NCBI RefSeq assembly: GCF_041429785.1
Contig: NZ_CP163423.1
Coordinates: 496,001-560,000 of the forward strand
DNA: 64,000 nucleotides
DNA from: Fretibacter rubidus
GTDB taxonomy: Bacteria > Pseudomonadota > Alphaproteobacteria > Caulobacterales > Maricaulaceae
Direction: 5' to 3'
Both the position numbers and the translations under genes were made by a program. Each line of letters begins with the position of its first letter. The first letter of the stretch is position 1. Under the pieces are notes generated by a model. The model was not told where the DNA came from, searched no databases, and was given only the letters and a program-made list of their open reading frames with translations. Positions 24,090-61,704 of the stretch are shown here, in pieces.

Positions 24090-24112
24090 TTCAGGCGGAT
24101 AGGAGAAAGAAT

Positions 24113-25845: not shown

Positions 25846-27074
25846 ACAGCGCGGCGCCAGATCTGACTATACGCGCACGTCCGCGCGCGGTGCGCCGTTT
25901 TAGCCGCAAAGCACTGATGGGCGGCGGGCTTGTCTTAGGCGTTATCATGTTCGGGGCTTTGGCTTTTGCGCTGCAATCTCCTAATTATGACGATGAGCGG
26001 GCAGATGAGCTTTATAATGTCACGCATAAGCCGATGGCCGATGGCTTGGAGCTTTTGCCAAAGTCCTATGCCGAGCTAAAGCCGAAACTTGGCCCGCCAT
26101 TGCCTGGGGACTTAGGCGCGGCCTATCTGGACAGAGTGGGTGCGGTTGAAGAAATCGAACCGATTGCCACACGGGCAGAGCCAACGAGTTTGGGCGGCTA
26201 TCGACCCGCACCCGTTCAGCCGCGATATGAACGGGCTACAGACTACGCTGCGCCGCCAACAGTAGAAAAACCAAATCTGTTTTTTGAATTATCAAATCGC
26301 AGCTCTGATACGCTCCCTGTGCAGACCGCAGATCTTGGACTGGATTACTTACCGCAGATGCCGAGCTATCCCGATGTCAGCGCGCCGCCATCTGCTTTTG
26401 ATTTGTCGCCTGTGGCTACAGACCAAAATCGGCAGGAAGCTAAACAGGCTTTCATGGAGCGTGACACTGACGGTATTTATAACTCGCACGGTTTAGTCTC
26501 ACCGCGCTCACCTTATCAGGTTATGGCGGGCAACATTATTCCAGCCTCATTGGTGACAGGCCTTAACTCTGATCTGCCGGGGCAGGTTATCGGACAAGTG
26601 ACTGAGAATGTATTTGATACAGTGACGGGGCAACATCTGCTTATTCCGCAGGGGTCTCGCTTAATGGGGCGCTATGATAGTGTCATCGCTTTTGGGCAGA
26701 GCCGTGCTCTGGTCGTTTGGACACGGCTGATACTGCCCAACGGTGATAGCATACAGCTTGATAATCTGCCGGGGTCCGACAGCCAGGGCTTTGCAGGTCT
26801 CAAAGACAAAGTGGATCGTCACACTTGGCAGTTCATCAAGGGCGCAGCTTTGTCATCGCTTCTGTCCGTTGGTTCAGAGCTTGCCAGCGACGACACAGAC
26901 CGACTGACGCGCGCGTTACAAAACGCCGGACAGGACACAGCCAATATAGCCGGGCAGCGGATCATTGACCGCAACCTCAATGTTCAACCGACCCTGCGCG
27001 TGCGCCAAGGATGGCGGTTCAACGTCATCGTCTCGCGCGACCTTATCCTCAAACCTTATGGAGCCAACCGATGA
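25842..27074 (+). CDS. trbI: TrbI, VirB10-like channel protein
   Basis: A 410-residue protein with an N-terminal membrane helix (about 27-48), a proline-rich periplasmic linker to about residue 200, and the VirB10 beta-barrel domain (YQVMAGNIIPASLVTGLNSD, TGQHLLIPQGSRLMGRYD). It spans both membranes in VirB10 systems. ATGA-type overlaps join it to trbG and to the DUF2274 gene. A trbH gene is not present between trbG and trbI. Confidence 0.93.
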   Translation: MNSAAPDLTIRARPRAVRRFSRKALMGGGLVLGVIMFGALAFALQSPNYDDERADELYNVTHKPMADGLELLPKSYAELKPKLGPPLPGDLGAAYLDRVGAVEEIEPIATRAEPTSLGGYRPAPVQPRYERATDYAAPPTVEKPNLFFELSNRSSDTLPVQTADLGLDYLPQMPSYPDVSAPPSAFDLSPVATDQNRQEAKQAFMERDTDGIYNSHGLVSPRSPYQVMAGNIIPASLVTGLNSDLPGQVIGQVTENVFDTVTGQHLLIPQGSRLMGRYDSVIAFGQSRALVVWTRLILPNGDSIQLDNLPGSDSQGFAGLKDKVDRHTWQFIKGAALSSLLSVGSELASDDTDRLTRALQNAGQDTANIAGQRIIDRNLNVQPTLRVRQGWRFNVIVSRDLILKPYGANR

Positions 27075-32789: not shown

Positions 32790-32809
32790 AAAATGGTGCC
32801 CCCACACGG
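32790..32809. repeat. Attachment-site core, left copy
   Basis: AAAATGGTGCCCCCACACGG is identical to 43031-43050, where it is the 3' end of tRNA-Thr. It marks the left boundary of the mobilizable element and probably the right boundary of the ICE. Confidence 0.85.
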
Positions 32810-32867
32810 GGTGCCCATAGTCCTTAATTTCTAATTATTACAATGATTTAGCTCTTTGCGCAAGTCG

Positions 32868-32906
32868 TTTGTGAGGCAAAAAGTGCGTTAATTTGTGAGG
32901 CAGAAA
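32868..32906 (+). other. Candidate integrase arm sites, left end
   Basis: TTTGTGAGGCAAAAA (32868-32882) and TTTGTGAGGCAGAAA (32892-32906) are direct repeats 24 bases apart, about 60 bases inside the left core. Related copies in the same orientation lie just inside the right end at 42923-42947. Confidence 0.55.
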
Positions 32907-33164
32907 TTAATACTATTCATTCTTGCTTGATCAAAGTTTTCAGCGTTGAAAAAGATTTCAGAATCTTCCTACGATGAAACCAAATTTTTGTGGCGCACAG
33001 CGTTCTAATGCATCAGCGATAATGTGGGAAGTAACATAACCTTATGAGCAAAAGTTTGTGGCTTTTCAGAAGCATAAAAATACTCTACTTAGAATAGACT
33101 TGATGATCTATTGCTGAGTTGCTTCATATTTTATCTTAGATGCCTAAGTGGCAGAAGGAATTAA

Positions 33165-35042
33165 TTGTTACTTGTCAGAACAGCAGACCTGAAAAAAATC
33201 AGTTCGTTGCGCCTAAGAAACCTCACTAGAACAGCTTTATTTTCAACTAAAACTGAACAGCTCAAGAAAGTTCTTAGATCTATTTCTAAGGAGGCTACTG
33301 CCCAACAAGCTTTTGATGTTTACTCAACATTTTTAGATGCTGGCGCAGAAGATGCCTTTATACCCACAGCCTTTCCTAAAACACCAGCAGAGATACGAGG
33401 TAACGTGGCTGGTGCACCGGGGGAGTTAGCGGTTGAGATAGCAATTCAATTAAGTAGGATCGTCAAGCATCGCGAACAACTCAATGAATACGTAATCGCA
33501 ATGTCCCGACTGTCTAATGATGTTTCGGAATCAAACTGGAACAGCGTAATTAAACAAGTGAAAAACCTAATAGACTCCCATGGTGTATCCCTAGCTCTGT
33601 TTTCTAAATGTCGAAGTTTAATGGCTTTAAAGGGCAGTGAACCGATAAGAAAGGAACTGGATTCGTTAATTGATGACTGGTCGAAGCCAAGCCCTACGGT
33701 AATTTTGGCGTCTATCATTGATCTAGTGGATCGCGATGACGGCATGATCTCTACTAGAAGGCGTTTCATGTCTTACATTGATGAAGGTTTTCTTAAGTCA
33801 AGAAATTCACAAGCTTTGTTGCGGTACATCAATGAGGGTTGCCCTACATCCCCAGAAGAATGCGCAACAACTCTTCGAGGGCTTGGCATTTACAGCCTTG
33901 TGGACGTATTTTTCTTCCTCGTACAAATTCCAGACGAGTATATTTCCTTACCCGAAAACCTCAATAACTTAGTCAGTGATTTGCGCATGTTTTGGGTAGA
34001 TGCTTACAATGATGTGAAAATTGATAAGCTAGGGTCAGAGTTCATGGTAGAGGAAAGCATAAAAGACTTTCACTTTCTCAGACATCTTCACCATTGGTCT
34101 GATGTTCCTAGCGTTTGGCAGTATAGAACAAAACTTGAAACGTCTCTAGGGCATCGGTTTAGTTCACGAATTTCATTAAAAATGGCTGGGTCTTCTTTTT
34201 TCAAAAGAGGTTCCAGTGCGACCCCACCAAACTTACCGACGCAACGTGAAGACTTAGGTGAAGACGTAATCACATTTAGTGATCAATCTTATTGGCGGAA
34301 TACAATTGTGCTGGTGGAAAATTGGACTGATGATATTCTTCCAGCAAAAAACTCTAGGATGAGCTTCGTCGACGCATTGGAAATAACAGTCAATGTAGCG
34401 GAATTAACTACACCGGAAGAAATTGAAGCGCTTGGAGATGGATTGCCCTCTGTGAGCAAGCACTTTGATAACTATGTAATCAAAACCTTACTGGACGATG
34501 CATTGGATACAGATCAATCTGGGTTTGAAGTTAGGATGGCTGCAGAGGATTTAATTCTTGAGGAGTATGATGGGGACATTATTTCTTTTGTAGAAAACAC
34601 ACATGTCCAATATCCGCGCATCGCAGAGCATTTCGTTGAGAAGTCTTCGGAATTGTTTCTATCTCAATTATTTGAGCTTCTTGAGACGCCGAATGAAGTC
34701 GCTGAGGCTAAAGCGCAATTGCTGGAGTGGCAACATGCTATTGACCCCGAAGCTAATAGCTTAATTCCTTCTCTTGTTAAAAGTATCAGGTTCAGTTCAA
34801 AACTGCAGCGGCTTAAAAATGAAGTGGCGGATCGCCGACTTTTCGTAGACCCTGACCGATATTCACTTTATTTGAGAGAAAGTGTTTTGCCAATGCTGCA
34901 AAGATCAAGCGATGGTGCTATGCTGGTTATTCAACAAGCAGAAGTTAACAAGCTCAAAAACCCAGTTAAAGTAATTGAAAACCCTAGTCTTAGATTTGCA
35001 AATTTATTGGATAGTGCTTTTTCCGAATTTTATACGAATTGA
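33165..35042 (+). CDS. dtcA: Detocs DtcA-like sensor, N-terminal part (ends at in-frame TGA)
   Basis: 625 residues from TTG 33165, preceded by GAAGGA at suitable spacing; there is no ATG nearby. The sequence is helical with no membrane helix and no recognised motif, consistent with a repeat-type sensor region. It ends at TGA 35040-35042, but the same frame stays open through 36077, where the histidine-kinase-like ATPase domain is encoded. The two parts thus look like one 971-codon sensor kinase interrupted by one stop. Identification as Detocs DtcA rests mainly on the receiver and effector genes downstream. Base composition is AT-rich relative to neighbours. Confidence 0.65.
   Translation: MLLVRTADLKKISSLRLRNLTRTALFSTKTEQLKKVLRSISKEATAQQAFDVYSTFLDAGAEDAFIPTAFPKTPAEIRGNVAGAPGELAVEIAIQLSRIVKHREQLNEYVIAMSRLSNDVSESNWNSVIKQVKNLIDSHGVSLALFSKCRSLMALKGSEPIRKELDSLIDDWSKPSPTVILASIIDLVDRDDGMISTRRRFMSYIDEGFLKSRNSQALLRYINEGCPTSPEECATTLRGLGIYSLVDVFFFLVQIPDEYISLPENLNNLVSDLRMFWVDAYNDVKIDKLGSEFMVEESIKDFHFLRHLHHWSDVPSVWQYRTKLETSLGHRFSSRISLKMAGSSFFKRGSSATPPNLPTQREDLGEDVITFSDQSYWRNTIVLVENWTDDILPAKNSRMSFVDALEITVNVAELTTPEEIEALGDGLPSVSKHFDNYVIKTLLDDALDTDQSGFEVRMAAEDLILEEYDGDIISFVENTHVQYPRIAEHFVEKSSELFLSQLFELLETPNEVAEAKAQLLEWQHAIDPEANSLIPSLVKSIRFSSKLQRLKNEVADRRLFVDPDRYSLYLRESVLPMLQRSSDGAMLVIQQAEVNKLKNPVKVIENPSLRFANLLDSAFSEFYTN
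35040..35042 (+). other. In-frame TGA separating sensor and kinase halves
   Basis: The codons around it read ACG AAT TGA CAT TTC GGC, and no other stop lies in this frame from 33165 to 36077. TGA followed by C is the context most prone to readthrough in bacteria. It is either a nonsense mutation, a readthrough site or a sequencing error. Confidence 0.8.
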
Positions 35043-35090
35043 CATTTCGGCCTAGACTCTTACATCGGCAGACGGATTAGACATGGCACT

Positions 35091-36077
35091 TTGTCGCTAA
35101 CAATCGAAAGCCCGATCGTGGCAAGGGTCAACAAGTTCATTGAGGAATATAAAGATACAGATTCTAAAGTGATCTCATACCTCAATGAGTGGCTAGATAG
35201 TTACCGCACGATAGTATCCGATTTGGTCAATGAATTTTTACATGTAAAGTCTACGACTAAACCCGATGGAATCTTCAACCCCTCTCTTCTTGGACGAGAG
35301 GTAACTCTATGGTTTCTTACTATGAAATCAATTCATGAGCATGTTGAGACTGGCGTAAGAGATACAAGCTTGGTCCCAGTCATAATAAATTGGTTCTGGC
35401 GGGTCGCAGAAACTGACATTGCATCTGCAACGAAGCTATTGAGTAGCTTAAAGCAAAAAAGTGTAATGCAGAATACAGTGTGGTGCTCTGATCATCTAAA
35501 GCCTGAATTCGAAAAACTCATCACTGCAATTAACAGTGAAATTGATGCTAAATTTGCAGTCGTCGCGGGTTGGCTGAAGAAGCCGCCGTCTTCTACCATA
35601 GAAGCCGATATTGATGATGTTTTTGATGTGGTTGTTGACGATATCAAAGACCTATTTCCAGATTACCGTCCAGAAATTGAAAGAAATACGACTGACCCAC
35701 TTCAACTTATTGGTTTCGGATTTACGTATATTTATGACATCCTTTTTGCTCTAATTGGGAATGCTGCTAAGCATGGTAAAAGGAATGGCAGACTTGTTTT
35801 CAGAGTAGAAAAAACGGCCGACAATACGAAATCAGCTAGTTGGAAGATAACAATTGAGTTTGACCTAATTTCAGAATCTGATATGTGTAAAATCAAGACC
35901 GCGTTTGATGAAGCTAAAGCGGCAGGATTAGATAATCCTCATCAAGTAGAAGGCGGTACCGGTATTCCAAAGGTTCTAGCTGAACTCTCAGAAAATTTTG
36001 AAAACGGAGATTTAGATATATTAACCACGCCTACATCCTGCGCGGCAACAGTTAGCTTTGAGCTTCCTCTTGTCTAG
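35091..36077 (+). CDS. dtcA: Detocs DtcA-like histidine kinase part
   Basis: 328 residues if translated from TTG 35091, which has no visible ribosome site; more likely the second half of the gene beginning at 33165. The C-terminal 130 residues form a GHKL ATPase domain: N-box LIGNAAKHG (N224, H228) and glycine-rich EGGTGIPKV (287-295), with a final beta strand AATVSFELP. A standard H-box is not obvious; candidate phosphorylated histidines are H51 and H82/H84. Its end overlaps the receiver gene. It would phosphorylate the two receiver proteins that follow. Confidence 0.65.
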   Translation: MSLTIESPIVARVNKFIEEYKDTDSKVISYLNEWLDSYRTIVSDLVNEFLHVKSTTKPDGIFNPSLLGREVTLWFLTMKSIHEHVETGVRDTSLVPVIINWFWRVAETDIASATKLLSSLKQKSVMQNTVWCSDHLKPEFEKLITAINSEIDAKFAVVAGWLKKPPSSTIEADIDDVFDVVVDDIKDLFPDYRPEIERNTTDPLQLIGFGFTYIYDILFALIGNAAKHGKRNGRLVFRVEKTADNTKSASWKITIEFDLISESDMCKIKTAFDEAKAAGLDNPHQVEGGTGIPKVLAELSENFENGDLDILTTPTSCAATVSFELPLV

Positions 36078-36525
36078 TCGGCATGTTCTACTGATTGAGG
36101 ATGACGCCAAGAAAGCGCAAGATATTAAGGCGCTTCTAAGTCAGCTTCTACCAAGCGCAATTCTCACCGAGGCCTCTACTATACAGGAGGCAAAGAAGCG
36201 TCTGAGAAGGCAGTTATTCGATCTGGCAATTGTAGACATGGCACTTGCTGGGAGGCCTTCTCTTCAAGGAAAGGGAAACCCTACACAGTTCCCTAATGGC
36301 GGTTTAGAAATTTTACGGACTATCGCAGCACGTAATTTAGAAACTAAAGCTATAGTTATAACACAATTCCCTACGGTTGACCTTGAAAAGGAGACTGTTG
36401 ATCTGAAGAACCTAAAACAAAAAATGGAAATTCTTCTTGGCGAGCGTTTTCTTTCATCAATATTGTATCAGCCCGCAGATAAAATTTGGGAAGAACAATT
36501 TAAAAAATCGTTGGACTGCTTATGA
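36058..36525 (+). CDS. dtcB: Detocs DtcB-like stand-alone receiver
   Basis: 155 residues from TTG 36058 (TTG 36070 is also possible); both starts lie inside the kinase gene. It is a CheY-like receiver: acidic pocket IEDD (14-16), phosphoacceptor in LAIVDMAL (D60) and threonine in VITQF (T102). An insert sits after the acceptor (residues 64-82), and no output domain follows. In Detocs the stand-alone receiver is described as a phosphate sink that prevents accidental activation of the effector. It overlaps the effector gene by ATGA. Confidence 0.8.
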   Translation: MSFLLSSRHVLLIEDDAKKAQDIKALLSQLLPSAILTEASTIQEAKKRLRRQLFDLAIVDMALAGRPSLQGKGNPTQFPNGGLEILRTIAARNLETKAIVITQFPTVDLEKETVDLKNLKQKMEILLGERFLSSILYQPADKIWEEQFKKSLDCL

Positions 36526-37682
36526 AAATTCTATTGATAGAGGATGAAACTGAGAAGGTTAACTTGGTAAAAGAAATTGCTCTCAAAGCGCTTCCTCACC
36601 AAACGCCAGTTTTCGAGGTGGCAGCGACCTATACCGAAGGTAGGAGGGCAATTCGTGGCGGAGCTTATGACTTTATCGTCATGGACTTCTTACTACCTTC
36701 CAGTAATAGCGATGGCGAAAAAATTGATCATGGAGACAATCTTGCGCGAGCAATTCGTTCTTCTGAATACAATCAGCGAACCCCCGTGGTTGCTGTTACT
36801 CAGTACGAACAAGTCGATAATGAACGAAAGAGATTATTCTTAGAGCAAAACATTCACATCGTTTGGAACCAAGATGTCCAACTTGATTGGAAAAATGCAA
36901 TTGCAACGTTTTTTAAACTTAGCGACACCCGTTTACGATCTGATTTTATTCTAATCACTGCCTTGGAAAAAGAAGGGATGGCTTTTCAAGAGGTCGATGG
37001 AGTTTCAATAGGCACACGTCGCAAGGTTAGAGGACTCAATTGTCGAGAAGTGACAGTTGGAGAGAGATCTGGTCATCTAATTATTCAGCCAGACATGGGG
37101 CCAATATGTGCGGCAACTATTACGTCACGATGTTTGATGGAGTTTGATAGTCCTCTTTATCTTATGTCAGGGATATGTGGTGGTGTGACTGGTAACGCTA
37201 ATATCGGAGACGTTGTACTCGCAGATCGAGCTATCGATTACCAAGCTGGCAAACGTCAACCAGGCGGACACTTTGATCCTGATGGAAAGACGATTTCCGT
37301 TCTTCCAAGTGTCTTGGAGGCGTTCAACGACTACAGAAATGAAAAAGCAGACGAAGACTTGAGAGGTATCGCGCTACTGCATGAGAATTTTAGGAATGGC
37401 GAGACGCTTGTAGGGGCAGTTGCTACAGGTTCAGCTGTGGTGAATGATGCAGATGTTGTTAAAAAAGATATCACACCACAAGCTCGTGATGCACTTGGAA
37501 TTGATATGGAAATATATGGTGTATATTACGCCATATATTCATCTGGCTGGAATAGTAACTTTGCAGCAGTCAAGACCGTTGTTGATCTAGCAGACGGGTT
37601 CAAAAATGATACTTTCCAAACTCAAGCATGTTACATTAGTGCAGTCATTTCATGCGATATAATTAGGCGACTTTTGACATGA
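36522..37682 (+). CDS. dtcC: Detocs DtcC-like effector: receiver plus nucleoside phosphorylase domain
   Basis: 386 residues. Residues 1-130 are a receiver (IEDE at 7-9 region, acceptor D55 in FIVMDFLLP, T92 in VAVTQYE). Residues 140-386 match the PNP/MTAN fold: ILITALEKEGMAF, MSGICGGV (214-221), GDVVLADRAIDY, GAVATGSAVV, the purine-site DMEIYGVYYA (D327, E329) and TVVDLADG. In Detocs this effector, once phosphorylated, cleaves adenine nucleotides to abort phage infection. The start ATG is coupled to the receiver gene by a 4-base overlap. It is convergent with the relaxase gene. Confidence 0.88.
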   Translation: MKILLIEDETEKVNLVKEIALKALPHQTPVFEVAATYTEGRRAIRGGAYDFIVMDFLLPSSNSDGEKIDHGDNLARAIRSSEYNQRTPVVAVTQYEQVDNERKRLFLEQNIHIVWNQDVQLDWKNAIATFFKLSDTRLRSDFILITALEKEGMAFQEVDGVSIGTRRKVRGLNCREVTVGERSGHLIIQPDMGPICAATITSRCLMEFDSPLYLMSGICGGVTGNANIGDVVLADRAIDYQAGKRQPGGHFDPDGKTISVLPSVLEAFNDYRNEKADEDLRGIALLHENFRNGETLVGAVATGSAVVNDADVVKKDITPQARDALGIDMEIYGVYYAIYSSGWNSNFAAVKTVVDLADGFKNDTFQTQACYISAVISCDIIRRLLT

Positions 37683-37771
37683 GTTAATTTGGCCGTAAAT
37701 CTGAAATGGATAATTTCTGCTAACTGCTATTTTTATATTAGAAATGACAGAACTTAGAATTCTACGAAAAA

Positions 37772-40048
37772 TCACCTTCCAATCCCCCGACTTCGCCCTG
37801 CATCCCAATCAATCCCGCCACCGCTTAGCACTCGACCTTTGATGCGCTTGCCCCACTTCTGGGCGTGAGTGCTTTCCCAAGGCACGAGGTAGAACGCCCG
37901 CTGCGTCTCAATCATCGCGTGGGGGCCGTGGGTAAGTTCATATTTCTGAGCAACCGTGCCTTCGATCAATCGTCCTGCCTGTGCCGCAACGTGTGTCTTA
38001 CCTGTCATACCTTCTAGCTTCTGGGTCGCGGTGTTGAACCCCTCCGCTTCTAAGGCTTTCAAATAGCCGCGCTTGTAGGTGACGTAGCGGCTCGCGCCTT
38101 CTTGGCTTCGTTCTGCATAGCCCTGCCTAATCAGCCATTCACGGCGCTGCTGGAAGGCGGTGTCTATTTCTCGCCTAAAAGCGCTCATCTTTGTGCTTAT
38201 GCCTGCCATATCGCCTCGTCCCCAACTCACCTGCGAGCGGTCAAGCCACGTCGCACCGGGACTCGCGAGCTGTGCGTCTAAGTCTTGAACCGATAGAAGC
38301 TTTACGCCTGACGCGCGGCCTTGCTTCATGTCGAGCGCGATGGCACGTTTTTCAAAGTCCTCTGGCACGCGCCATTCATAGGGGTCGCCGTCTTTGTCTT
38401 TGCTAACCACTTCAACCACGCCTGCCTTTGCAAGCGCCGCCAGCCGTAGCCGATGTGCTCGTATGTGGGCCGCGCCCCTGCTGCCGCTGCCGTCCGTCCA
38501 ATCCTCTGGGCCGCTCGTGGTAATAGCGTAATATCCGACCAGCCCATTGTGTGGCTTGCCGTGATAATCTTTACCCGTCGCAATGGCTTGGATGTTACGG
38601 TCTACAGTTCGTAAGTTAGGCGGCGAGACTTCGATAATAGAGCCGACCTTAGCGGCTTCGCCCGCTCTTGTGTCCATGCCCGTCTCAACCGTGCTGACAT
38701 AACCGTCAGTGCCGTCGATAATGAACCGCACTTTGCCTCCGCCTTTTTGGTTTGCATCCATGCCCTCATCATAGCCATGAGTTTTTGCGATTACGCGGCC
38801 AATGACGCGGTGGGTTGAAAGGCTCCCATCGTAGCTTTGGCGGCCATCATGCAGGCGAACAGGTCTTTTGATTTTGGCCCGCTTCATCGCCGCGTGGATA
38901 TCTTTGTTGAGTTGCTCGCGCTGCTCTATCTGTCCGAGGGTCTTGAGTGCATCCTTTTCGATATGCCAGCGGCCTGACTCAATTTGCGTTGCTAGGCCCA
39001 TAGACTTCAATTGTCTCATACGCCCAATCAAGATATGTCTGTTCATAGATGAGTTAGCGGGAAACGTGGCTGCGGCTGACCCTGCGCGTAGGTCGATTGT
39101 GTTGGTGAGTTTGTCCATACCGTCCGCGATATGTCTGTCTGCTGTCGTGACGCGCATAGCGCTCATCTCACGCTTCATCTCCTGCTGGATTGCAAGCTCA
39201 GACTTCCACCCTAGCTCGCGGGTCAGTTCTTCCTCCAGCCGTCCGCGTATGCCGCGCGAGATATACTCGCCAGCAATGTTCAATCCTTTGCCGTCATGGG
39301 TCACGCCCCGCGCAATGATGTGCGTGTGCGGGTGGGCCGTGTCGAAGTGGTCAACCGCGACCCAATCCAGCCGCGTGCCTAAGTCCTCTTCCATCTGCGC
39401 CATGAGTGCTCGCGTTGTGTCTTTCAGGTTCGGTGTCCCGTCGCCATTCACGCGAGCCAACTCTGCCCCGTCTTCGGGCGAGATCATAATCCTAAACTGA
39501 TGCGGGTCGCCGCGTCCGTCAAAGCTTTCTTGCGAGCGAGCCACAAAATCTCGTCCATCAATCTCGACGCCTTCGTCTGGGCCGTAGAGCTGGCCGCGCG
39601 TTGGGGTCAACTCCGCCGAGCCGTCCAACCCCTCGGCTCGCTCAACACCTGCGCCCTCACGCTGGAGGTAAGCCAAGTGGCCTCGCGATACGGATGACTT
39701 GGCATTGCGCAGCTTCACCACACGGACTTTCACAATCGCGCGGCGGGCGCGGTAGCGGTCTCCCGTCGCCTTGTGAACGCGCCAGCCTTGCTTCGGCCCT
39801 ATGCCGCGCTCCAACGCCGCTCGGCCTCTACCTCGCGCGTTGAAGCGCCCCGTGCGCGGTTTGGACGGGATGGTTAGCGTTCGCCGCCCAGAGACGGCCT
39901 TGCCTCTCACGAGCGCAATGCGGGCCTCTTGGAAAAACCCCTTATAGTTTGCGGGGATATTGACCTCAGCGCCTCGGCTGCTGGACTTACGGGCTTTGGC
40001 TCTTAAGCGAAAATCATCTTCATCGGACATACGCCCATAATCGGGCAA
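37772..40048 (-). CDS. Relaxase of the mobilizable element, DUF3363 family
   Basis: A 758-residue relaxase homologous to the ICE relaxase at 829-2739. A candidate nucleophile tyrosine is in GHLAYLQREG (Y127), the second motif is FRIMISPEDG, and the histidine cluster is in DHFDTAHPHTHIIARG (H234, H241, H243). The C-terminal DUF3363 region ends with FYLVPWESTHAQKWGKRIKG, parallel to the ICE protein. The first 110 residues are very basic. No coupling protein or mating-pair genes are present in this element. The likely origin of transfer lies just upstream of its start (40139-40395). Confidence 0.92.
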   Translation of the reverse strand: MPDYGRMSDEDDFRLRAKARKSSSRGAEVNIPANYKGFFQEARIALVRGKAVSGRRTLTIPSKPRTGRFNARGRGRAALERGIGPKQGWRVHKATGDRYRARRAIVKVRVVKLRNAKSSVSRGHLAYLQREGAGVERAEGLDGSAELTPTRGQLYGPDEGVEIDGRDFVARSQESFDGRGDPHQFRIMISPEDGAELARVNGDGTPNLKDTTRALMAQMEEDLGTRLDWVAVDHFDTAHPHTHIIARGVTHDGKGLNIAGEYISRGIRGRLEEELTRELGWKSELAIQQEMKREMSAMRVTTADRHIADGMDKLTNTIDLRAGSAAATFPANSSMNRHILIGRMRQLKSMGLATQIESGRWHIEKDALKTLGQIEQREQLNKDIHAAMKRAKIKRPVRLHDGRQSYDGSLSTHRVIGRVIAKTHGYDEGMDANQKGGGKVRFIIDGTDGYVSTVETGMDTRAGEAAKVGSIIEVSPPNLRTVDRNIQAIATGKDYHGKPHNGLVGYYAITTSGPEDWTDGSGSRGAAHIRAHRLRLAALAKAGVVEVVSKDKDGDPYEWRVPEDFEKRAIALDMKQGRASGVKLLSVQDLDAQLASPGATWLDRSQVSWGRGDMAGISTKMSAFRREIDTAFQQRREWLIRQGYAERSQEGASRYVTYKRGYLKALEAEGFNTATQKLEGMTGKTHVAAQAGRLIEGTVAQKYELTHGPHAMIETQRAFYLVPWESTHAQKWGKRIKGRVLSGGGIDWDAGRSRGIGR

Positions 40049-40138
40049 AACAGAGGCGTTTGTCTCGAAGGAAGCCGATTAGAAATTGCAGGTAAAAGAG
40101 AGTTTCTAGGAGTTTGCGGGATAGGGGCATTTTGGAGG

Positions 40139-40395
40139 CGCTGCACATGAGTTACCGAAAAAGTAACACCCCAACTCGCGTAGCAAAAACAGAGCTTTAG
40201 CGTCGAAGTGCCCCCAAAAGGGCGGTTCGCTTTATCTTGCTAAAGCTCTTTTCTTTCCTAACCTCTCCTCAAGCTCCAATCCTATCTAATTAAATACGCT
40301 CTCTCAAAACAGAACCGTCCGACGCGCCTGCTGGAGCCGCCCACACGAGCGGAGGCAGGGGCGGTGGACTCGCCGCGAAGCGGGGAAGTAGTAAC
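40139..40395. other. Candidate origin of transfer / structured region upstream of relaxase
   Basis: The region holds several inverted repeats: GTTAC/GTAAC (40151-40155, 40163-40167), a perfect 11-base pair AGAGCTTTAGC/GCTAAAGCTCT (40191-40201, 40239-40249) enclosing a smaller GCCC/GGGC hairpin, and a conspicuously GC-rich stretch at 40318-40388. A structured non-coding region next to a relaxase start is where oriT usually lies. No nick site can be assigned from sequence alone; the 11-base pair with T-rich flank could also be a terminator. Confidence 0.35.
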
Positions 40396-40531
40396 AGGTT
40401 TAAGCTGGACGAGCTGGTTGATTTCTGTATTCTGATGATGTGCTTACCGTTTGGGATAAGCCACGGAGTTTTTATGTCCACATTTGTGGGAAATAACTAG
40501 AGTCGAATTATCGGCTTTCTGAATTATCCAA

Positions 40532-40550
40532 CAGGCTACATTGTAGCCTG
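40532..40550. promoter_or_regulatory. Perfect 19-base palindrome upstream of the acetyltransferase
   Basis: CAGGCTACA-T-TGTAGCCTG, about 100 bases before the acetyltransferase start. It could be an operator or a short hairpin; nothing else supports a function. Confidence 0.35.
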
Positions 40551-40648
40551 ACCATTAATGTTGGCTTGTTCACTTCTCAACTATTTTCAAATCTGAAATG
40601 GCGAGCCAGCCACGGCACGTAAGGCTGTGGAACATGAAAGATTAAACA

Positions 40649-41107
40649 ATGAATATTAGACCTACAAAGACCCAAGACATTCCTGCTCTTCAAATTGTTC
40701 TTGAAGGCACGGAACTCTTTCCGCCTGAAATGCTGGAAGGTATGTTTGAAGCCTCTCAAGCAACCGATCCACAAGAGTTGTTCTTCACTTATGAAGATAA
40801 CGGCACTGCGATAGCCTTTTGCTATGCTGCGCCCGAAGAACTCACGAACGGAACTTGGAACATGTTGGCGATTGCAGTGCTGCCGTCCCGACAAGGTGAT
40901 GGAGTGGGCGCTGCGCTCGCTGCTCACCTTGAGGCTGCGTTGAAGTCAGAGGGGCATCGTATCTTGATTGCTGATACGTCTGGCACTGAAGAGTTTGCCC
41001 AAACTCGGAATTTTTATAAAAAAAATGGCTATTCCGAAGAGTCTCGAATTCGAGATTTTTGGGATTCTGGTGACGATAAAGTGACATTCCGAAAGGCTTT
41101 ACAGTAA
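40649..41107 (+). CDS. GNAT family N-acetyltransferase
   Basis: A 152-residue protein with the GNAT fold: N-terminal MNIRPTKTQDIPAL, then MLAIAVLPSRQGDGVGAALA (acetyl-CoA-binding motif A, abbreviated pattern VLPSRQGDGVG at about 74-84), and a C-terminal FYKKNGYSEESRI motif. Substrate unknown. It is cargo of the mobilizable element, divergent from the relaxase and followed by a hairpin at 41118-41142. Confidence 0.88.
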   Translation: MNIRPTKTQDIPALQIVLEGTELFPPEMLEGMFEASQATDPQELFFTYEDNGTAIAFCYAAPEELTNGTWNMLAIAVLPSRQGDGVGAALAAHLEAALKSEGHRILIADTSGTEEFAQTRNFYKKNGYSEESRIRDFWDSGDDKVTFRKALQ

Positions 41108-41117
41108 CTAGGAAACA

Positions 41118-41142
41118 GGTGTTCAGCCTATGGCTGAGCACC
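41118..41142 (+). terminator. Hairpin after the acetyltransferase gene
   Basis: GGTGTTCAGCC and GGCTGAGCACC pair over 11 bases (one G-T) around a TAT loop, followed by AATTCTTTTG. Probably a Rho-independent terminator of moderate strength. Confidence 0.55.
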
Positions 41143-41297
41143 ACAATTCTTTTGTAAAAAATTTGCTGTATCAGCTTATGGCTTGTTAGTTTCGCCAGTG
41201 GTTGTGCGCGCAATTATTTCCCATCTTGACCCGCGATACACAAATTATCCAACTCTTTTCTTCGTAAAAATCGCGGTGATTGCGCTATAATCTCTGC

Positions 41298-41513
41298 GTG
41301 GATAAAGCCCAAAACATATCGAAAAATGACCTAACGGAAGCTCCTTCGCGTGCTGATATAAAGCGCGGTATGACTATCGCAGCGCAACTTGTTCAGCGAT
41401 ACGGAGCTAAATACTGGCCCGTTTTAGAGCGTCTAAAGCAAGAGTATGACGCGCTAGATGACCGTGAGGCGTTGCTGGCCTCGCTCCTTTTTGACGCGGA
41501 CAAAGCCGCGTAA
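41298..41513 (+). CDS. Small hypothetical protein next to the integrase
   Basis: 71 residues from GTG 41298; the frame is open to TTG 41280. The product (DLTEAPSRADIKRGMTIAA, LVQRYGAKYWPVLERLKQ) is a short helical basic protein with no recognised domain. A consensus TATAAT at 41286-41291 stands 6 bases before the GTG, so the transcript may be leaderless. Genes of this size beside integrases are sometimes excisionases or regulators, but no helix-turn-helix is evident here. It is convergent with the integrase gene. Confidence 0.55.
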   Translation: MDKAQNISKNDLTEAPSRADIKRGMTIAAQLVQRYGAKYWPVLERLKQEYDALDDREALLASLLFDADKAA

Positions 41514-41523
41514 ACCGATAAAT

Positions 41524-42900
41524 TCAGCCCTTAAACGGATAGCTTTGCAATAGCGTGTCACTGACGGGGTGAGTTATCTTCAATAGCTCGTCTCGGCGGT
41601 AAGCAAGCGACCCTCCATCCCCATATTCAGGGCGCGGGTTACGGTGTCCCATCAAAGTGCAACGCAAGCCAAAGTCTAATCCAGCCTCCAACATTCTGTT
41701 TTCAAAGCTGTGCCGAAAGCTATAGATACGGTGCTGCTTTGTCGGGAATAGCCCTCTGGCTTTGAATGCTTTTGTCAGTGATGCACTTAGCAAATAACTC
41801 CTATCCCTGTAATGCGGAAAGCCATTCGGAGCCTGCCGCATGGCCTCCAGCGCAACGCCGACGAGCGGAATATCACGAACTGATGCGCCTGATTTCAGCT
41901 CTCTGTCTTTCGTTGGACGGATGCGAATATGCGGAACCTCCGCGTCCAGCCGTATGTTTTCTGGTCTGATATTTGCCAACTCGCTTGGTCTGCATCCTGT
42001 CTCTATCAAGGCCATGCAAAGCAACGCGCCTTGCCTATTGAGGCCATAAAAAACATCTGGCGCAAGTATGCGTGACCTAACCCAATCGTCCTTAAAAGGC
42101 ATGACCTTTTTTAGAATTTTGTCTTTGAAGCGCATATTGCGGAACGGGTTTTCGCGCTCTTCTTCGCCTATGTGTTCAAAATATCGGCGGTAGAGTTTCC
42201 GCAAACTACCCAAGTCTTTGTTGCCGCTGCTGCCGCTCATGGGCTTGGAACCGTCCTTCGGGTGGATGCGCTCATGCCAGAATTTACGCACGGCGTGAGC
42301 GTGTTCGCGGGTAATGTCCCGCATATCTATATCGCCATTTATGGAAACAAAGTTCGCCACGGCGCGGCGTTTGATTTTGGAAAAGTTGTTCACTTGCTCT
42401 GGTGATTTACTGGCGAGTTCGTCAGCGACGATCTCAGATAGGTAAAGCTCCATTGCTTCGCTGATGGTCGCAGAAGGCGTCTTGGCTATGCCTAGTAAAG
42501 CGTCTGCGTCTTGCTCTTCCTTGGGGTGCGAAGCCTCCTTTAACGGCCCTAAGGCTTGTAGGCGGTGTAATAAATCCGTGACAGTATCGCGGGAAATCAA
42601 GCTGTCCATTGGCTCATAGTTGAACCCCAGCGAGCGGGCGTATTGGCTCACGTCTCGGTAGCTAGTCTCTCTTGGCGTCGAGCGGAAACGGCTCGGCGCG
42701 ACCTCGCTCCAGCGTTGTTCGTCCGCATCGGCGCATATGTCTCTCCGCTGGCGGGCGACCTTGCGGCTATCTGTATCGAGGGAACGGTATATCAATGTGC
42801 GGTCATCTATATGGCTTACCGCCTTGGGCACACGCCGGACGTAATGCCATATATCGCCACGTAAACGTAGGTATTGGTCGGGCCGTCTAATCGCTTTCAT
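41524..42900 (-). CDS. int: Tyrosine recombinase / integrase
   Basis: A 458-residue site-specific recombinase. The N-terminal arm-binding region resembles the DUF6538 type (YLRLRGDIWHYVRRVPKAV). Catalytic residues of the tyrosine-recombinase fold are visible: Arg in ETGCRPSELA, the HxxR-like box in RIYSFRHSFENR, MGHRN, and a C-terminal tyrosine candidate in RPEYGDGGSLAYRRDE. The gene lies 130 bases from the tRNA-Thr 3' end and reads away from it, typical of an element integrated into a tRNA. It should recombine the 20-bp cores at 32790 and 43031. Confidence 0.93.
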   Translation of the reverse strand: MKAIRRPDQYLRLRGDIWHYVRRVPKAVSHIDDRTLIYRSLDTDSRKVARQRRDICADADEQRWSEVAPSRFRSTPRETSYRDVSQYARSLGFNYEPMDSLISRDTVTDLLHRLQALGPLKEASHPKEEQDADALLGIAKTPSATISEAMELYLSEIVADELASKSPEQVNNFSKIKRRAVANFVSINGDIDMRDITREHAHAVRKFWHERIHPKDGSKPMSGSSGNKDLGSLRKLYRRYFEHIGEEERENPFRNMRFKDKILKKVMPFKDDWVRSRILAPDVFYGLNRQGALLCMALIETGCRPSELANIRPENIRLDAEVPHIRIRPTKDRELKSGASVRDIPLVGVALEAMRQAPNGFPHYRDRSYLLSASLTKAFKARGLFPTKQHRIYSFRHSFENRMLEAGLDFGLRCTLMGHRNPRPEYGDGGSLAYRRDELLKITHPVSDTLLQSYPFKG

Positions 42901-42922
42901 CCTGCCATCTCCTGTGCAGCCT

Positions 42923-42947
42923 TTTGTAAGGCAAGAAGTGAGGCAAA
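42923..42947 (+). other. Candidate integrase arm sites, right end
   Basis: TTTGTAAGGCAAGAA (42923-42937) and GTGAGGCAAA (42938-42947) repeat, in the same orientation, the motif found at 32868-32906 inside the left end. They lie between the integrase start and the tRNA core. Confidence 0.5.
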
Positions 42948-43030
42948 TCGCGCGAGTTACCGTATGGAAAGTACAGGAAAGAGAGATTTCCCGAGACTTT
43001 TCAGAGGCTTACGCAACTTGCTATGATAGG

Positions 43031-43050
43031 AAAATGGTGCCCCCACACGG
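43031..43050. repeat. Attachment-site core, right copy
   Basis: AAAATGGTGCCCCCACACGG, identical to 32790-32809. From 43035 onward it is part of tRNA-Thr, whose 3' end is thus preserved after integration. Confidence 0.88.
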
Positions 43051-43110
43051 ACTCGAACCGCGGACCCCCTGATTACAAATCAGGTGCTCTACCAGCTGAG
43101 CTATAGGGGC
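43035..43110 (-). tRNA. tRNA-Thr (anticodon UGU)
   Basis: A 76-base cloverleaf read on the minus strand from 43110: acceptor GCCCCTA pairs with the 3' TGGGGGC before an encoded CCA. The D arm contains AGCTCAGCTGGTAGAGC. The anticodon stem CCTGA/TCAGG closes loop TTTGTAA with anticodon TGT. The T arm contains GGTTCGAGTCC. It is the integration target of the element to its left. Confidence 0.97.
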
Positions 43111-56460: not shown

Positions 56461-56574
56461 GGCGCGACTTTTTATGACAGTGATAGCTCTGGAAATTGTG
56501 CTACACTGCACTTAGATATATTACCAGAATAAATGGGCCCACGTGCCTTTGAACCGAACCAAAAGCGAGCCATC

Positions 56575-56931
56575 ATGCAAAGCAAAGCCAAACCCCTTGA
56601 TGATTTATCAAATCTGATGACCAATGCCATGGGCGCCGTCAAAGGCGTCGGCGACGAGGTCAAAGCCATGGGCCGCGCCCGCGCCGAAAGTCTCATCGCC
56701 GATATGGACCTTGTGGGCCGCGAAGAGTTTGAAGTGTTCAAAGCCCTGCTTGCGAAACAGGCCACAGAGATTGAAGCGTTAAAAGCAGACATCGCGTTAT
56801 TGAAAAAACCTGCGCGCAAAACAGTCGCTAAAAAGCCAGTCACCAAAAAGCCAAAACCCTCCACAATTCCCGCCGCCGCCAAAGCAGCCGCAAAGAAAGC
56901 TCAAGGGAAGAAGACGGCAAAAAAAGCTTAG
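56575..56931 (+). CDS. UbiK/BMFP-like accessory protein with basic tail
   Basis: 118 residues from ATG 56575 (MQSKAKPLDDLSNLMTNAMG). The N-terminal amphipathic helix and the coiled-coil containing LVGREEFEVFKALLAKQATEIEALKADI, abbreviated to VGREEFEVF, match the UbiK/BMFP family that forms trimers and supports ubiquinone synthesis or membrane fusion. The Lys/Ala-rich C-terminal 40 residues are typical of alphaproteobacterial members. It is divergent from lgt. Confidence 0.85.
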   Translation: MQSKAKPLDDLSNLMTNAMGAVKGVGDEVKAMGRARAESLIADMDLVGREEFEVFKALLAKQATEIEALKADIALLKKPARKTVAKKPVTKKPKPSTIPAAAKAAAKKAQGKKTAKKA

Positions 56932-56991: not shown

Positions 56992-59900
56992 TTATACTCT
57001 CCATTTTTCGGCATTGAGCCGGGCATTGATAGCAATGGTGCTTACACTATAATAAAAGGGACGTTTATCAAACGGGTTAAGATTAAAGTTTCCGCTCGGG
57101 AGATATTTCTTAATAGCTTTTCTAAAATCGTCATTGTCATCAGGATGTAAGGTGCTGCCAAATGCGGAAGCCCATGCCATTGCTACTCTATGGGTTGTAT
57201 CTGAGAAAGTAGCACGAGCTATATTGTCCATGATCTCTTGGCGTAAACTTATATCAATGCCTTTCTCTCGCAAGGCACACATAAAAGACGAGGCTACGGC
57301 AGCGTGCGTCTTTATATCTGCGCTTGGCCCACCCAGTTGGTCAATTAATAATTTGACCTCGTAAGAGAGTTTTCCGTCGCATGTTTGCTCCACCGCATCA
57401 ACAAGCATAGCGCTATTAACAGGAAGAAAATCGTGTTTGCGTTCTGCAAGACCGATTGTTGCGTTTAGGTATTGTTCGTTAGTGAGTTTTTGGGACTCTA
57501 ATGCGAATTGAATGCTTGCTGAAAGCCATAGCCCGTCATCGACACCAAGTTGCTTAGCAAGTTGCCTTAATGAGTTATCATCAGACAATAATGGCACGCC
57601 GTGCTTTTTTGCTAATTCTATAGGTGCTAGAGTTAGTGGCACCTGTTTTAGAATGATTTCTTCTATGTCTGTCTTATCGTCCCCATAAATGACAGGCTCG
57701 ATTTCGCAGAGGTTCCTTAAATCAGAAATCGCCGTTTCCAACCATTCAATTTGGTTTTTGTGAAATGTTTTGTCTTTTTCATCACGATAGACGTCTCCTT
57801 CAACAGCAGTAAGAGAGAAGCTATCCCCCTTGGACACTTTGACTAAATCAAGATGCGCTAATAGCTGTTCAAGTTCGTTTTCGGAAAGCCTTATTGGGCC
57901 TAGTGTCTCCGCGAGCGGTTTTAATATCGAGAGTTCCAGTGCCGTCACAGCTGTAAATAAGTCTATAACGATTCCATTTTTGACGTTTTTAGCCACATTT
58001 GCGGCTTCTTCCTGAACCTCTTTAGTGCCCTGATTGGTTGGGATTTCATACCCACGTTGACGGATAGCATTAGCCAGTTTCAAACCGCACAAACCATCTT
58101 CACCTCCCATCAATGCAAGAGGCAGGTTTTTCTCGATCACTACTCGGCATATATCATCTTGGTGTTCCCCGTCTTTGCGAACCATATCGAGAATTGGCTC
58201 AACATTTTCACCATCAGTTACAATCCGATTTATAATTGCAGCGTCCCCAAAACGATCAGGGTGTTCGTTAGATAGGTATTGAGCTGCGCGAATATATTCG
58301 GGCCAGACATCTTCGATGATCCACTCAACATTGTCACCCATTTTAGATGCTGTAGAGAACGTATCGCCTATTCTTTTTCCTAAGGCGGCCTCTAGTCGTA
58401 AATCACCTTTATGGAGAACCACGCCCCAAGGCCGATGGTCATTGCCTTCAATAATGCCCTCAACAACTTCGTTCGTTCCTGATCGTCTAATTTTTACGTA
58501 CTGGCCTTTTTCAACGATACGGCTTGGTGGGCCTTCTAAATTAGTTGAAAATACAAAACCTATATAACTTCCTGACACTGTTGGAGAGGCTTGTCCTTTA
58601 GGGTCAATTACAGACCTGAATGCCATCTGTATTGCTTGTTCAAGTTTCTCATGTCGTTTTAAAATACTTGCATATTGCATGGAGTCTAAAGGGCTATAGG
58701 GAAGACCTTCAACACCTTCGGTGTTAAGCAACTCTTCGATTTTTGCCTCGTCGTTTAACCTCATTGCACATCGGTAAATAGCGAGCCAATAACGCAGATG
58801 TGGATGATGATTAAAAAGCTCTTCAAAGTGCTTTTTGGCTATTAAAAAATTCCTTTGGTTGAATGCAGCAATCGCTACCAGTTCTTTGTATTCAGCCAGC
58901 TCCAGTAATGTCTCATCAAGTTTGCTGAATATTTCGATAGATCTCTGACGCATTGGCGTTTCAGTAGCAGCGACTGAAAGAAGAAGTTCTAATTCTTCAG
59001 ACGGACGAGAGTAGTCTATTCGCTCCCAAAGAAGCTCTATAATTGTGTTGTCATCGTTTAAAATTTTAGCTTGGTGAACAACGCTCACAATGTCTTCAGG
59101 CTCTGCGTCATCACCTAAACAATTTTTCGCTGATGCGAGACAGGATAATGCTTGTTCGATACCTAAGTACTTGCGCGCAAGTTGGGAACGAATAGTCCAC
59201 TCGCGACAGGCAACAGAACTTTCTTTGATTAGTTTTTCGACAGCCTTGCTACGGTCTTTTTCTTCCAAACTCTCTATTTGGGCCAGTGATTTTAGTCCAA
59301 GCAAAAGACCATGATCACGGTCTTTATCACCTAATCTCGCATCACATAAGGCTTCTACCGTGTTCCAATCGTTGATATCTAATGCATGTTGTAGTCTCAT
59401 TTTCTGTGCATCGGCAGTCTGTGGAAGCTCCTCAACTACATCGTTGAGTTCGTCCGCCCGTCCGGATTTTACAAGGTTGATTGCGTACTCAAGCGCTAGG
59501 CTTGCATCTTGGATTTTTTCTCTGGCAATAAGACCGATTTTAATGGCTTGCTCAGATTTACCAGCAACACGAAGCGCCTGCATATAATTTACTGGTAGTG
59601 CGGGCTCATGAGATTGTTGGTAATTCCCTTTGGATTGTGTTTCGTCCCATAAAGAAGCATATACATCCAAGGCTTCTGTGAGTTGGTTGTGATTTTCTGG
59701 TGTTAAAGGATCTAAACCCGCCAAGGCAGCCTCATCTTCAAAGACGCTCTCAAGTAATGTATCAGCATAAAACTGACGAATATAGTAATCATCAGGATGG
59801 TCTTTAAGCGCTTTTAGGGTCGCTTTTCTCAGAGATTTTTTAGTGTCTGTTCGTCTAGTTATTTCTAGACGGGCCAACCAAACATGTGCGTTCCTGCGAG

Positions 59901-60912
59901 CGGCGTCTGGAACAATAGATAAGTCTTTAAGAAAATGCAGTGATCTCGCTATTAATGACGAGTTACTAGCGTCTTCTTTTAATGCTGTTTCAGTCAATTC
60001 GCGGAGTTCATTGAGCTTGTTTTGAAAGCCAAGTGCCAATGCATAATTTGAAATAGTAGCTGCGCGATGCGGCATATACTCATAAGCCTCAGCATATTTC
60101 TCAAATGCTAGCTCGCGCTCGTCAAGGATAAAGTGGCAATTCCCAAGACCTCCAATTATTCTCGCGTAGTCAATCGGTTCCTTTGGCTTTTCAGTTTCTA
60201 AGAGATCACAAAGTTCGGTGAAACACTCTACTGGCTCAAACGGTATTCTTTCAGATATTTCTGTTATCAATGTGGTAAGCGGAGTTTCCTTATCGTTTTC
60301 ATCGATAGTTTTAATTTCTATTATCGCCAGTTTGGAACGTGATGGTGATAAACCCGCTTTAGCTATCGCAGATAATTTTTTTAACCCATCGGGGTCATTG
60401 ACTTGCATATGTTCGATTAATGCAATGACGGCCGCCGATTGAACATCGAGTGCTCTAAACACCTCTGGCTTTGTTCGAGCCATATCGGTCAAGCTGTCCC
60501 AATCCCAGATTTGAATTAGAGGCGCTTTGTCACCGAGCTCTAAATTTAACGTCTTTTGAAGTTCATCTGCTGCATCCTGCAACGCCGTTTTCTTTACTGC
60601 TGTTGTTGCATAGATGAATCTTTGGAACTCAAACTTTGCAAGTGCCGCCCTAACATGTGTCTCAACATCGTCAGGGTTTTCCTCTTTACCCGGCTCTCGG
60701 CACTTACCCTGTATTACCGTTAATTTCGTTGTTTCATCATTTGGTCTGCCGCGAACATCTATACCATGTTGAGTGGAACCTTTGCGGCCATAGCGTTCAA
60801 ATGTAGTGCTTTTGAAAATATGATTGGCGATATCAACCAGAGCGATCTCAAAGTCTTGATCGTTGACTGGCGGCTGTATGTGTTTGGCGGAAATCGCTGA
60901 ACTTGAAATCAT
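56992..60912 (-). CDS. Giant nuclease-TPR-GreAB-C-PIN protein (candidate defence protein)
   Basis: A 1306-residue protein. Residues about 15-160 look like an Mrr-type restriction endonuclease domain, with FERYGRKGSTQHGIDVRGR (D52) and VIQGKC (Q68, K70). Residues about 230-770 are helical repeats of TPR character. Residues about 800-880 include VVEGIIEGNDHRPWGVVL and ALGKRIGDTFSTAS, resembling the C-terminal domain of GreA/GreB. Residues about 980-1125 resemble a PIN nuclease (VIDLFTAVTALELS, then VPLLSDDNSLRQLA). The TPR-GreAB-C-PIN order has been predicted to be a bacterial conflict system. No partner gene is adjacent; it is a single-gene insertion between housekeeping genes, flanked by repeats. 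Confidence 0.75.
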   Translation of the reverse strand: MISSSAISAKHIQPPVNDQDFEIALVDIANHIFKSTTFERYGRKGSTQHGIDVRGRPNDETTKLTVIQGKCREPGKEENPDDVETHVRAALAKFEFQRFIYATTAVKKTALQDAADELQKTLNLELGDKAPLIQIWDWDSLTDMARTKPEVFRALDVQSAAVIALIEHMQVNDPDGLKKLSAIAKAGLSPSRSKLAIIEIKTIDENDKETPLTTLITEISERIPFEPVECFTELCDLLETEKPKEPIDYARIIGGLGNCHFILDERELAFEKYAEAYEYMPHRAATISNYALALGFQNKLNELRELTETALKEDASNSSLIARSLHFLKDLSIVPDAARRNAHVWLARLEITRRTDTKKSLRKATLKALKDHPDDYYIRQFYADTLLESVFEDEAALAGLDPLTPENHNQLTEALDVYASLWDETQSKGNYQQSHEPALPVNYMQALRVAGKSEQAIKIGLIAREKIQDASLALEYAINLVKSGRADELNDVVEELPQTADAQKMRLQHALDINDWNTVEALCDARLGDKDRDHGLLLGLKSLAQIESLEEKDRSKAVEKLIKESSVACREWTIRSQLARKYLGIEQALSCLASAKNCLGDDAEPEDIVSVVHQAKILNDDNTIIELLWERIDYSRPSEELELLLSVAATETPMRQRSIEIFSKLDETLLELAEYKELVAIAAFNQRNFLIAKKHFEELFNHHPHLRYWLAIYRCAMRLNDEAKIEELLNTEGVEGLPYSPLDSMQYASILKRHEKLEQAIQMAFRSVIDPKGQASPTVSGSYIGFVFSTNLEGPPSRIVEKGQYVKIRRSGTNEVVEGIIEGNDHRPWGVVLHKGDLRLEAALGKRIGDTFSTASKMGDNVEWIIEDVWPEYIRAAQYLSNEHPDRFGDAAIINRIVTDGENVEPILDMVRKDGEHQDDICRVVIEKNLPLALMGGEDGLCGLKLANAIRQRGYEIPTNQGTKEVQEEAANVAKNVKNGIVIDLFTAVTALELSILKPLAETLGPIRLSENELEQLLAHLDLVKVSKGDSFSLTAVEGDVYRDEKDKTFHKNQIEWLETAISDLRNLCEIEPVIYGDDKTDIEEIILKQVPLTLAPIELAKKHGVPLLSDDNSLRQLAKQLGVDDGLWLSASIQFALESQKLTNEQYLNATIGLAERKHDFLPVNSAMLVDAVEQTCDGKLSYEVKLLIDQLGGPSADIKTHAAVASSFMCALREKGIDISLRQEIMDNIARATFSDTTHRVAMAWASAFGSTLHPDDNDDFRKAIKKYLPSGNFNLNPFDKRPFYYSVSTIAINARLNAEKWRV

Positions 60913-61078
60913 AGGTGATAATTGGTTATTCGCCCTTGGATTGTAAAGGGAATAAGCAGGAGCATTGGTTAATTACCCCAGATTAAATATATGCTATCAA
61001 GTAAATTAAGCTATCCCTTTATCCGCCAAAGATTATCACGCTTCTTGAAACATGTCGACTTGGGTTAGGAGTGCCCGG

Positions 61079-61187: not shown

Positions 61188-61222
61188 ACAAAACACCCCG
61201 ACCATGGCCGGGGTGTTTTTAT
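61188..61222 (-). terminator. Rho-independent terminator of the LysM gene
   Basis: AACACCCCG and CGGGGTGTT form a 9-base stem with an inner CCATGG, with T-runs on both sides (TTTTGTTTT on the minus strand, TTTTT on the plus strand). It is 27 bases past the LysM gene stop and could act in both directions. Confidence 0.8.
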
Positions 61223-61248: not shown

Positions 61249-61704
61249 TTAGACGCTTTCTGCGTTATCCGCTGGGATGCGTAGTACTTGACCGACATAA
61301 ATTTTATCGGGATGTTTTAGCATGGGGCGGTTGGCCTCGAAAATCTCTTTGTAGCGCGAGCCTTTGTTATAGTAGCGTTTTGAGATCGCCCAAAGCGTAT
61401 CGCCGGAAACAACGGTGTGAAATTCAGAGGCAGGGGCATCATCTGACGCCTCAATTCCGTCTTCAACCTCGCCGACGCCTTCGACATTGCCGACTGCCAA
61501 GATGATTTTTTCTTTCATTTCTTGGGTGACGCCTTTGCCTTTGACCGACACTTTGCCGTTGTCATCGACATGGATGTCAATTTCGTCTTTGGCGAGGCCT
61601 AAATCTTTGACCTCTTTTTTGAGCGCGTCTTCGGCGTCTTTGCCTTTGAAGATTTTACCAAGGCCGCGGCCTGCCATTTTTACAAAAGGAATCATTCCAA
61701 ACAT
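61249..61704 (-). CDS. BON and LysM domain protein (Kbp/YgaU-like)
   Basis: 151 residues. Residues about 25-90 form a BON domain (VSVKGKGVTQEMKEKIILAV, VEGVGEVEDGI). Residues about 95-148 form a LysM module (HTVVSGDTLWAISKRYY, PDKIYVGQVLRIP). The arrangement matches E. coli Kbp (YgaU), a cytoplasmic potassium-binding protein; no signal peptide is seen. A peptidoglycan-binding role is the alternative. Confidence 0.9.
   Translation of the reverse strand: MFGMIPFVKMAGRGLGKIFKGKDAEDALKKEVKDLGLAKDEIDIHVDDNGKVSVKGKGVTQEMKEKIILAVGNVEGVGEVEDGIEASDDAPASEFHTVVSGDTLWAISKRYYNKGSRYKEIFEANRPMLKHPDKIYVGQVLRIPADNAESV

Follow-up and report, generated by a model that had tools for sequence, protein, structure and literature searches.

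Gene and domain architecture

What does a 1306-aa protein encoded among the housekeeping genes of Fretibacter rubidus do, and which of its two nuclease-like domains does the work? The gene is an intact frame, 60912..56992 on the minus strand, with an ATG start and 1306 codons without an internal stop (ORF analysis; coordinates are those of the window, the whole 64,000-nt stretch that was analysed). The plus strand across 56992..60912 has stop codons throughout. An earlier note on this DNA had read four domains from the sequence, an Mrr-like nuclease, TPR repeats, a GreA/B-C domain and a PIN domain, and each of them is backed by profiles, homologues or predicted structure. The features of the gene are as follows.

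56992..60912 (-): REase-TPR-GreA/B-C-PIN gene, 1306 aa (homologues of equal length and domain order)
60918..60947 (-): weak promoter-like match 5' of the start codon (sequence match; not evidence of function)
60448..60879 (-): Mrr-type PD-(D/E)xK nuclease (REase), aa 12-155 (Mrr_cat profile, invariant motif, model topology)
60757-60759 and 60703-60711 (-): codons of D52 and of Q68-x-K70, which with E22 are the predicted catalytic REase residues (alignment)
58543..60300 (-): TPR-type helical repeats, about aa 205-790 (model helices, TPR profile matches in relatives)
58300..58533 (-): GreA/GreB C-terminal (FKBP-like) domain, aa 794-871 (model, family profile, PF01272 in relatives)
57478..57996 (-): PIN domain, aa 973-1145, Pfam 982-1120 (PF20698, VapC4 match, site comparison)
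56995..57477 (-): C-terminal helical region, aa 1146-1306 (model; weak conservation)

The single-sequence Pfam scan returned PF20698 plus sub-threshold TPR and Mrr_cat_2 matches only, an NCBIfam scan gave no useful match, and the full protein had zero matches among the PADLOC families. The domain search proposed in the earlier note did find the PIN-TPR-GreABC family: PF20698 matches aa 982-1120 with E=1.2e-16, scoring 61.6 bits where the cut-off is 27.8. With this match above the cut-off and the same core order, the suggested link to a proposed TPR-GreAB-C-PIN conflict system holds, and the protein almost certainly belongs to that family. Kaur, Iyer, Burroughs and Aravind (eLife 2021; PMC8195603) described its members as a constant TPR-GreA/B-C-PIN core with a variable N-terminal effector of 13 interchangeable kinds (REase, HNH, PNPase, TIR, SIR2, trypsin and others), encoded by mostly stand-alone genes. 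They predicted that the system targets RNA polymerase transcribing viral DNA, that its PIN domain cleaves the transcript and that the effector at the N-terminus serves as a second line; anti-invader activity and action at RNA polymerase are both predictions in that paper (PMC8195603).

The N-terminal nuclease

The catalytic D...(D/E/Q)-x-K motif is present in the F. rubidus REase, in which E22, D52 and Q68-x-K70 are all kept, D52 and Q68-x-K70 lying exactly where they had been placed before. The motif across the family alignment (A1) is G-R-x-G-x-x-Q-x-G-x-D...Q-C-K, with G42, G45, Q48, G50, D52 and Q68 invariant. Taken in isolation, the domain matches Mrr_cat with E=0.0015, which does not reach the curated cut-off; the profile is matched by 11 of 13 isolated REase domains, this one included. 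Its predicted structure alternates helices and strands in an alpha-beta arrangement compatible with the PD-(D/E)xK fold (pLDDT mostly 80-96; mean 80 for the N-terminal model). The structure search with the N-terminal model is uninformative on the REase fold, because TPR matches filled the result list, and a REase profile run against PDB sequences gave nothing meaningful. In the PADLOC comparison the REase showed similarity to nucleases of known defence proteins: one family member matched Avs2 (5.3e-7) and two matched LmuA (5.8e-5).

Outside the family, a phage search gave one weak match, limited to aa 11-148, which is the REase. Matches on two viral contigs (L037 and L038) are likewise confined to the REase part of proteins shorter than 1000 aa, the same REase type there being fused to other proteins of about 975 aa. 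A genome of the same genus (G001) encodes a stand-alone 197-aa Mrr-type REase without TPR, GreA/B-C or PIN (L033, 1955-2545). It is the nearest relative of the F. rubidus REase (40% identity, tree support 100/100) and is located elsewhere than the insertion place of the F. rubidus gene.

Since Mrr_cat similarity and an intact catalytic motif are what a restriction enzyme would offer, the protein might act in a type IV-like manner, the Mrr-type domain directly recognising and cutting modified or foreign DNA and the remainder serving as scaffold. We consider this improbable. Pfam matches up to E=10 include neither Mrr_N nor another separate DNA-recognition domain, and the same core carries non-DNA effectors in place of the REase (PMC8195603); because the family makes such swaps, a triggered effector fits better than a restriction enzyme.

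TPR scaffold and GreA/B-C domain

Repeat helices were modelled for aa 205-330 and 691-790, where they align with TPR structures, and the middle of the scaffold (aa 331-690) is assigned from the alignment only. TPR_2 is matched by 7 of 10 family members. The GreA/B-C domain of the F. rubidus protein gave no match in the single-sequence Pfam scan, and its assignment comes from relatives and from the model: PF01272 is matched by 4 of the 10 members (best 1e-5), the family profile matches E. coli GreB at 4e-6, and modelled aa 794-871 superimpose on GreA/Gfh1 C-domains with Z 8.1-8.9 over 72-77 residues. The same profile also picks GreA-sized proteins in many genomes, at model positions of about 806-873. 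In the F. rubidus protein, the loop that corresponds to the GreB region aligned with 'DSP' has G-D-L, and its variation across the family is too great for a conclusion on RNA polymerase contacts. Beyond the PIN domain, the final 34 or so residues are of low confidence in the model.

PIN domain and its altered active site

The modelled PIN region superimposes on the VapC4 PIN domain with Z 9.4 (134 residues, rmsd 3.2). In the structure-prediction check that the earlier note had proposed for its four domains, the PIN, GreA/B-C and TPR folds were matched, and the N-terminal search gave only TPR matches. PPR matches of the C-terminal profile were discarded as chance because they are short, repeated and clustered around the first PIN acid. 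Three acids of the PIN site are present, D984, E1015 and D1112, of which E1015 aligns with the second acid. The third metal-site acid, an aspartate or glutamate in nearly all relatives, is replaced by alanine (A1096; codon GCA, 57625-57627). The F. rubidus protein therefore does not have the full set of metal-site acids of an active PIN ribonuclease, a set that is complete in most relatives. PIN enzymes without one acid can retain some activity, and the nearby E1099 might stand in for the third acid. The sister protein in genome G898 (L061) has serine at the same position. Given the alanine at a position that is acidic almost throughout the family, the two nuclease outputs attributed to the protein in the earlier note are doubtful for the F. 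rubidus copy.

The altered site bears directly on the scenario published by Kaur et al., in which GreA/B-C would dock on RNA polymerase, PIN would cut the nascent or backtracked transcript and the REase would be a fall-back suicide effector. That scenario has precedent (PMC8195603), the PIN fold and D984, E1015 and D1112 are kept, and most relatives have the full acids, so that an RNase-led output is conceivable; with A1096 in F. rubidus and serine in its G898 sister, we regard it as unlikely for this copy.

Relatives and distribution

Full-length homologues are about 1288-1459 aa long and keep one domain order, REase, TPR, GreA/B-C and PIN, throughout the alignment. The family is sparsely distributed. 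It exceeds the Pfam cut-off in 10 of 398 genomes of the Pseudomonadota sample (about 2.5%, F. rubidus included), full-length homologues occur in 2 of 385 genomes of the class sample, and the full-length protein was found in 3 of 249 genomes of the F. rubidus order. A single-protein search of the genome contigs with the F. rubidus protein returned no relative. Weak A1 matches in the order search nearly all look like TPR proteins or, at model positions of about 806-873, GreA/GreB-sized proteins, and were rejected as family members. Homologues are also found on Alphaproteobacteria plasmids, mostly conjugative or mobilizable.

The REase is present in 18 of the 22 intact PIN-family matches, the other four (L023, L107, L110 and L111) having another N-terminus; this count is not biased toward the REase because it is limited to matches found with the PIN model. 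Given this frequency and the listing of the REase among the 13 effectors in PMC8195603, the earlier view of the N-terminal nuclease as an added domain is wrong, and the claim of novelty fails with it, the core with a REase effector having been described there already.

The F. rubidus protein and L061 of G898, both without the third PIN acid, form a clade (support 100/99) in the tree built from 27 full-length proteins. A separate clade of four proteins (L019, L021, L073 and L112; support 100/100) has the REase substitutions E22Q and K70R and an intact PIN. An example of a REase with E22Q/K70R is WP_140523105.1, and the Sinorhizobium LMB1 plasmid protein WP_127581798.1 is a relative with complete PIN acids. 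It is possible, if rather doubtful, that lineages of the family time and again give up one nuclease site and keep the other, the degenerate domain acting as a non-cutting RNA or DNA sensor that gates the other nuclease. A stricter rule, that the two nucleases never degenerate together, was rejected: the counts among the 27 (two PIN, four REase, none with both) are too few for significance and come from two clades only.

The closest full-length relative of the F. rubidus protein is only 23% identical to it. Its branch is long (2.86 changes per column) and its letter make-up unusual; owing to the long branch, its placement needs caution and the protein could be under relaxed selection. Together with the altered PIN site, and with the same-genus genome G001 keeping only its 197-aa REase, these features would also suit a gene in decay that no longer has a function. 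Against such decay stand the 1306-codon frame without a stop, the intact REase motif and modelled parts that fold with good confidence, and we hold it to be a poor explanation.

Plasmid homologues adjoin annotated ATP-dependent endonuclease/UvrD pairs, which we take to be Gabija-like, as well as Shedu and SIR2 genes; ThiF/Mov34, SLATT with a nucleotidyltransferase, and RES/Xre toxin-antitoxin genes also lie nearby (all counted as raw occurrences). On Ancylobacter and Bosea plasmids, an Abi_2-like gene of 239 aa lies 9 bases upstream of the homologue (L067 6269-6985, L069 6269-6985); a partner gene may therefore exist in some lineages.

Genomic context and acquisition

The gene lies between a ubiK-like gene and a LysM gene. 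The flanking features are as follows.

56533..56931 (+): flanking chromosomal gene, product presumably UbiK/BMFP-like (aligned with the G009 empty site)
61249..61704 (-): flanking chromosomal gene, product presumably a LysM-domain protein (sequence)
61190..61219 (strand not assigned): terminator-like hairpin of the LysM gene, 15-nt arms, 93% complementary, at the upstream insertion edge (inverted repeat I2)

A genome of the same family (G009) keeps the order lgt, ubiK region, LysM, VOC and exchanger and is missing the family gene, and thus presents an empty site; the lgt-to-LysM distance is about 0.8 kb there versus 4.8 kb in F. rubidus. The G+C content of the gene is 0.425-0.430 (43%), compared with about 0.50-0.58 on the ubiK/lgt side, and 0.365 at third codon positions. 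The gene was acquired horizontally as a single gene. Compared with the empty site it is a single-gene insertion, which confirms the earlier description of a gene without a partner in a housekeeping neighbourhood.

Elsewhere in the window, a 10.2-kb integrated element (32790-43050) has identical direct repeats of 20 nt, one at 32790-32809 and the other at 43031-43050, where it coincides with the 3' end of a tRNA-Thr gene (43035-43110). The element carries a tyrosine-recombinase-like integrase (41524-42900, minus strand), a relaxase with DUF3363 (37772-40048, minus strand) and a four-gene set (33165-37682) that has the appearance of a cassette for signalling or defence: two proteins without a Pfam match, the second HATPase-like by eye, a receiver protein and a fusion of a receiver with a PNP_UDP_1 phosphorylase (E 1.9e-16 for the latter). 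Just outside the element, at about 22770-27074, are conjugation-type genes, which in our reading resemble TrbL, TrbF, TrbG and TrbI.

Proposed mode of action

From the domains, their order, the acquisition and the active sites, we infer a role in defence, with the F. rubidus protein probably acting mainly through its DNase as a member of a predicted defence family. The TPR superhelix would keep the protein inactive and sense a cue of infection or of a foreign element, and the GreA/B-C domain would place it at the secondary-channel region of RNA polymerase, action at the polymerase being as much a prediction here as it is in PMC8195603. Activation would free the N-terminal REase to cut DNA, either the invader's or that of the entire cell, the latter being abortive. 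The PIN domain of this copy probably binds RNA; since one of four acids is missing, it probably cleaves poorly or not at all, which would make the DNase the main output. As a whole, the sequence of TPR sensing, polymerase docking and DNase release is a tentative proposal, somewhat less probable than its opposite; family membership with a REase effector and the proposed mechanism, taken in combination, stand at about an even chance. Should the prediction hold, one gene would provide a complete defence that works at transcription. Naturally occurring variants in which a single nuclease site is changed give a direct route to asking which nuclease works and whether RNA polymerase docking matters.

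Comparison with known systems

With Avs2/AVAST and Lamassu LmuA the likeness is limited to the N-terminal Mrr-type nuclease part. The Pfam scan to E=10 found no NTPase family in the F. rubidus protein and hence no STAND NTPase, a feature of Avs; GreA/B-C and PIN take its place. The GreA/B-C domain has the fold of the GreA/GreB/Gfh1 C-terminal domain and profile similarity to GreB, but it comes without the Gre N-terminal coiled coil and is fused between TPR and PIN. VapC-type toxins share the PIN fold, and D984 and D1112 are kept, whereas the F. rubidus PIN is without the third acid and without an antitoxin partner gene.

The closest counterpart is the TPR-GreA/B-C-PIN system (PF20698), for which our literature search found no experimental study, many subscription papers being outside its reach. 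The F. rubidus protein shares with that system the core, its order, the stand-alone gene and a listed effector, the REase, but it is very divergent and has alanine at the third PIN acid. Judged from the aligned sites, what is new here is an intact REase motif combined with an altered PIN site in one lineage, and the reverse pattern in another clade.
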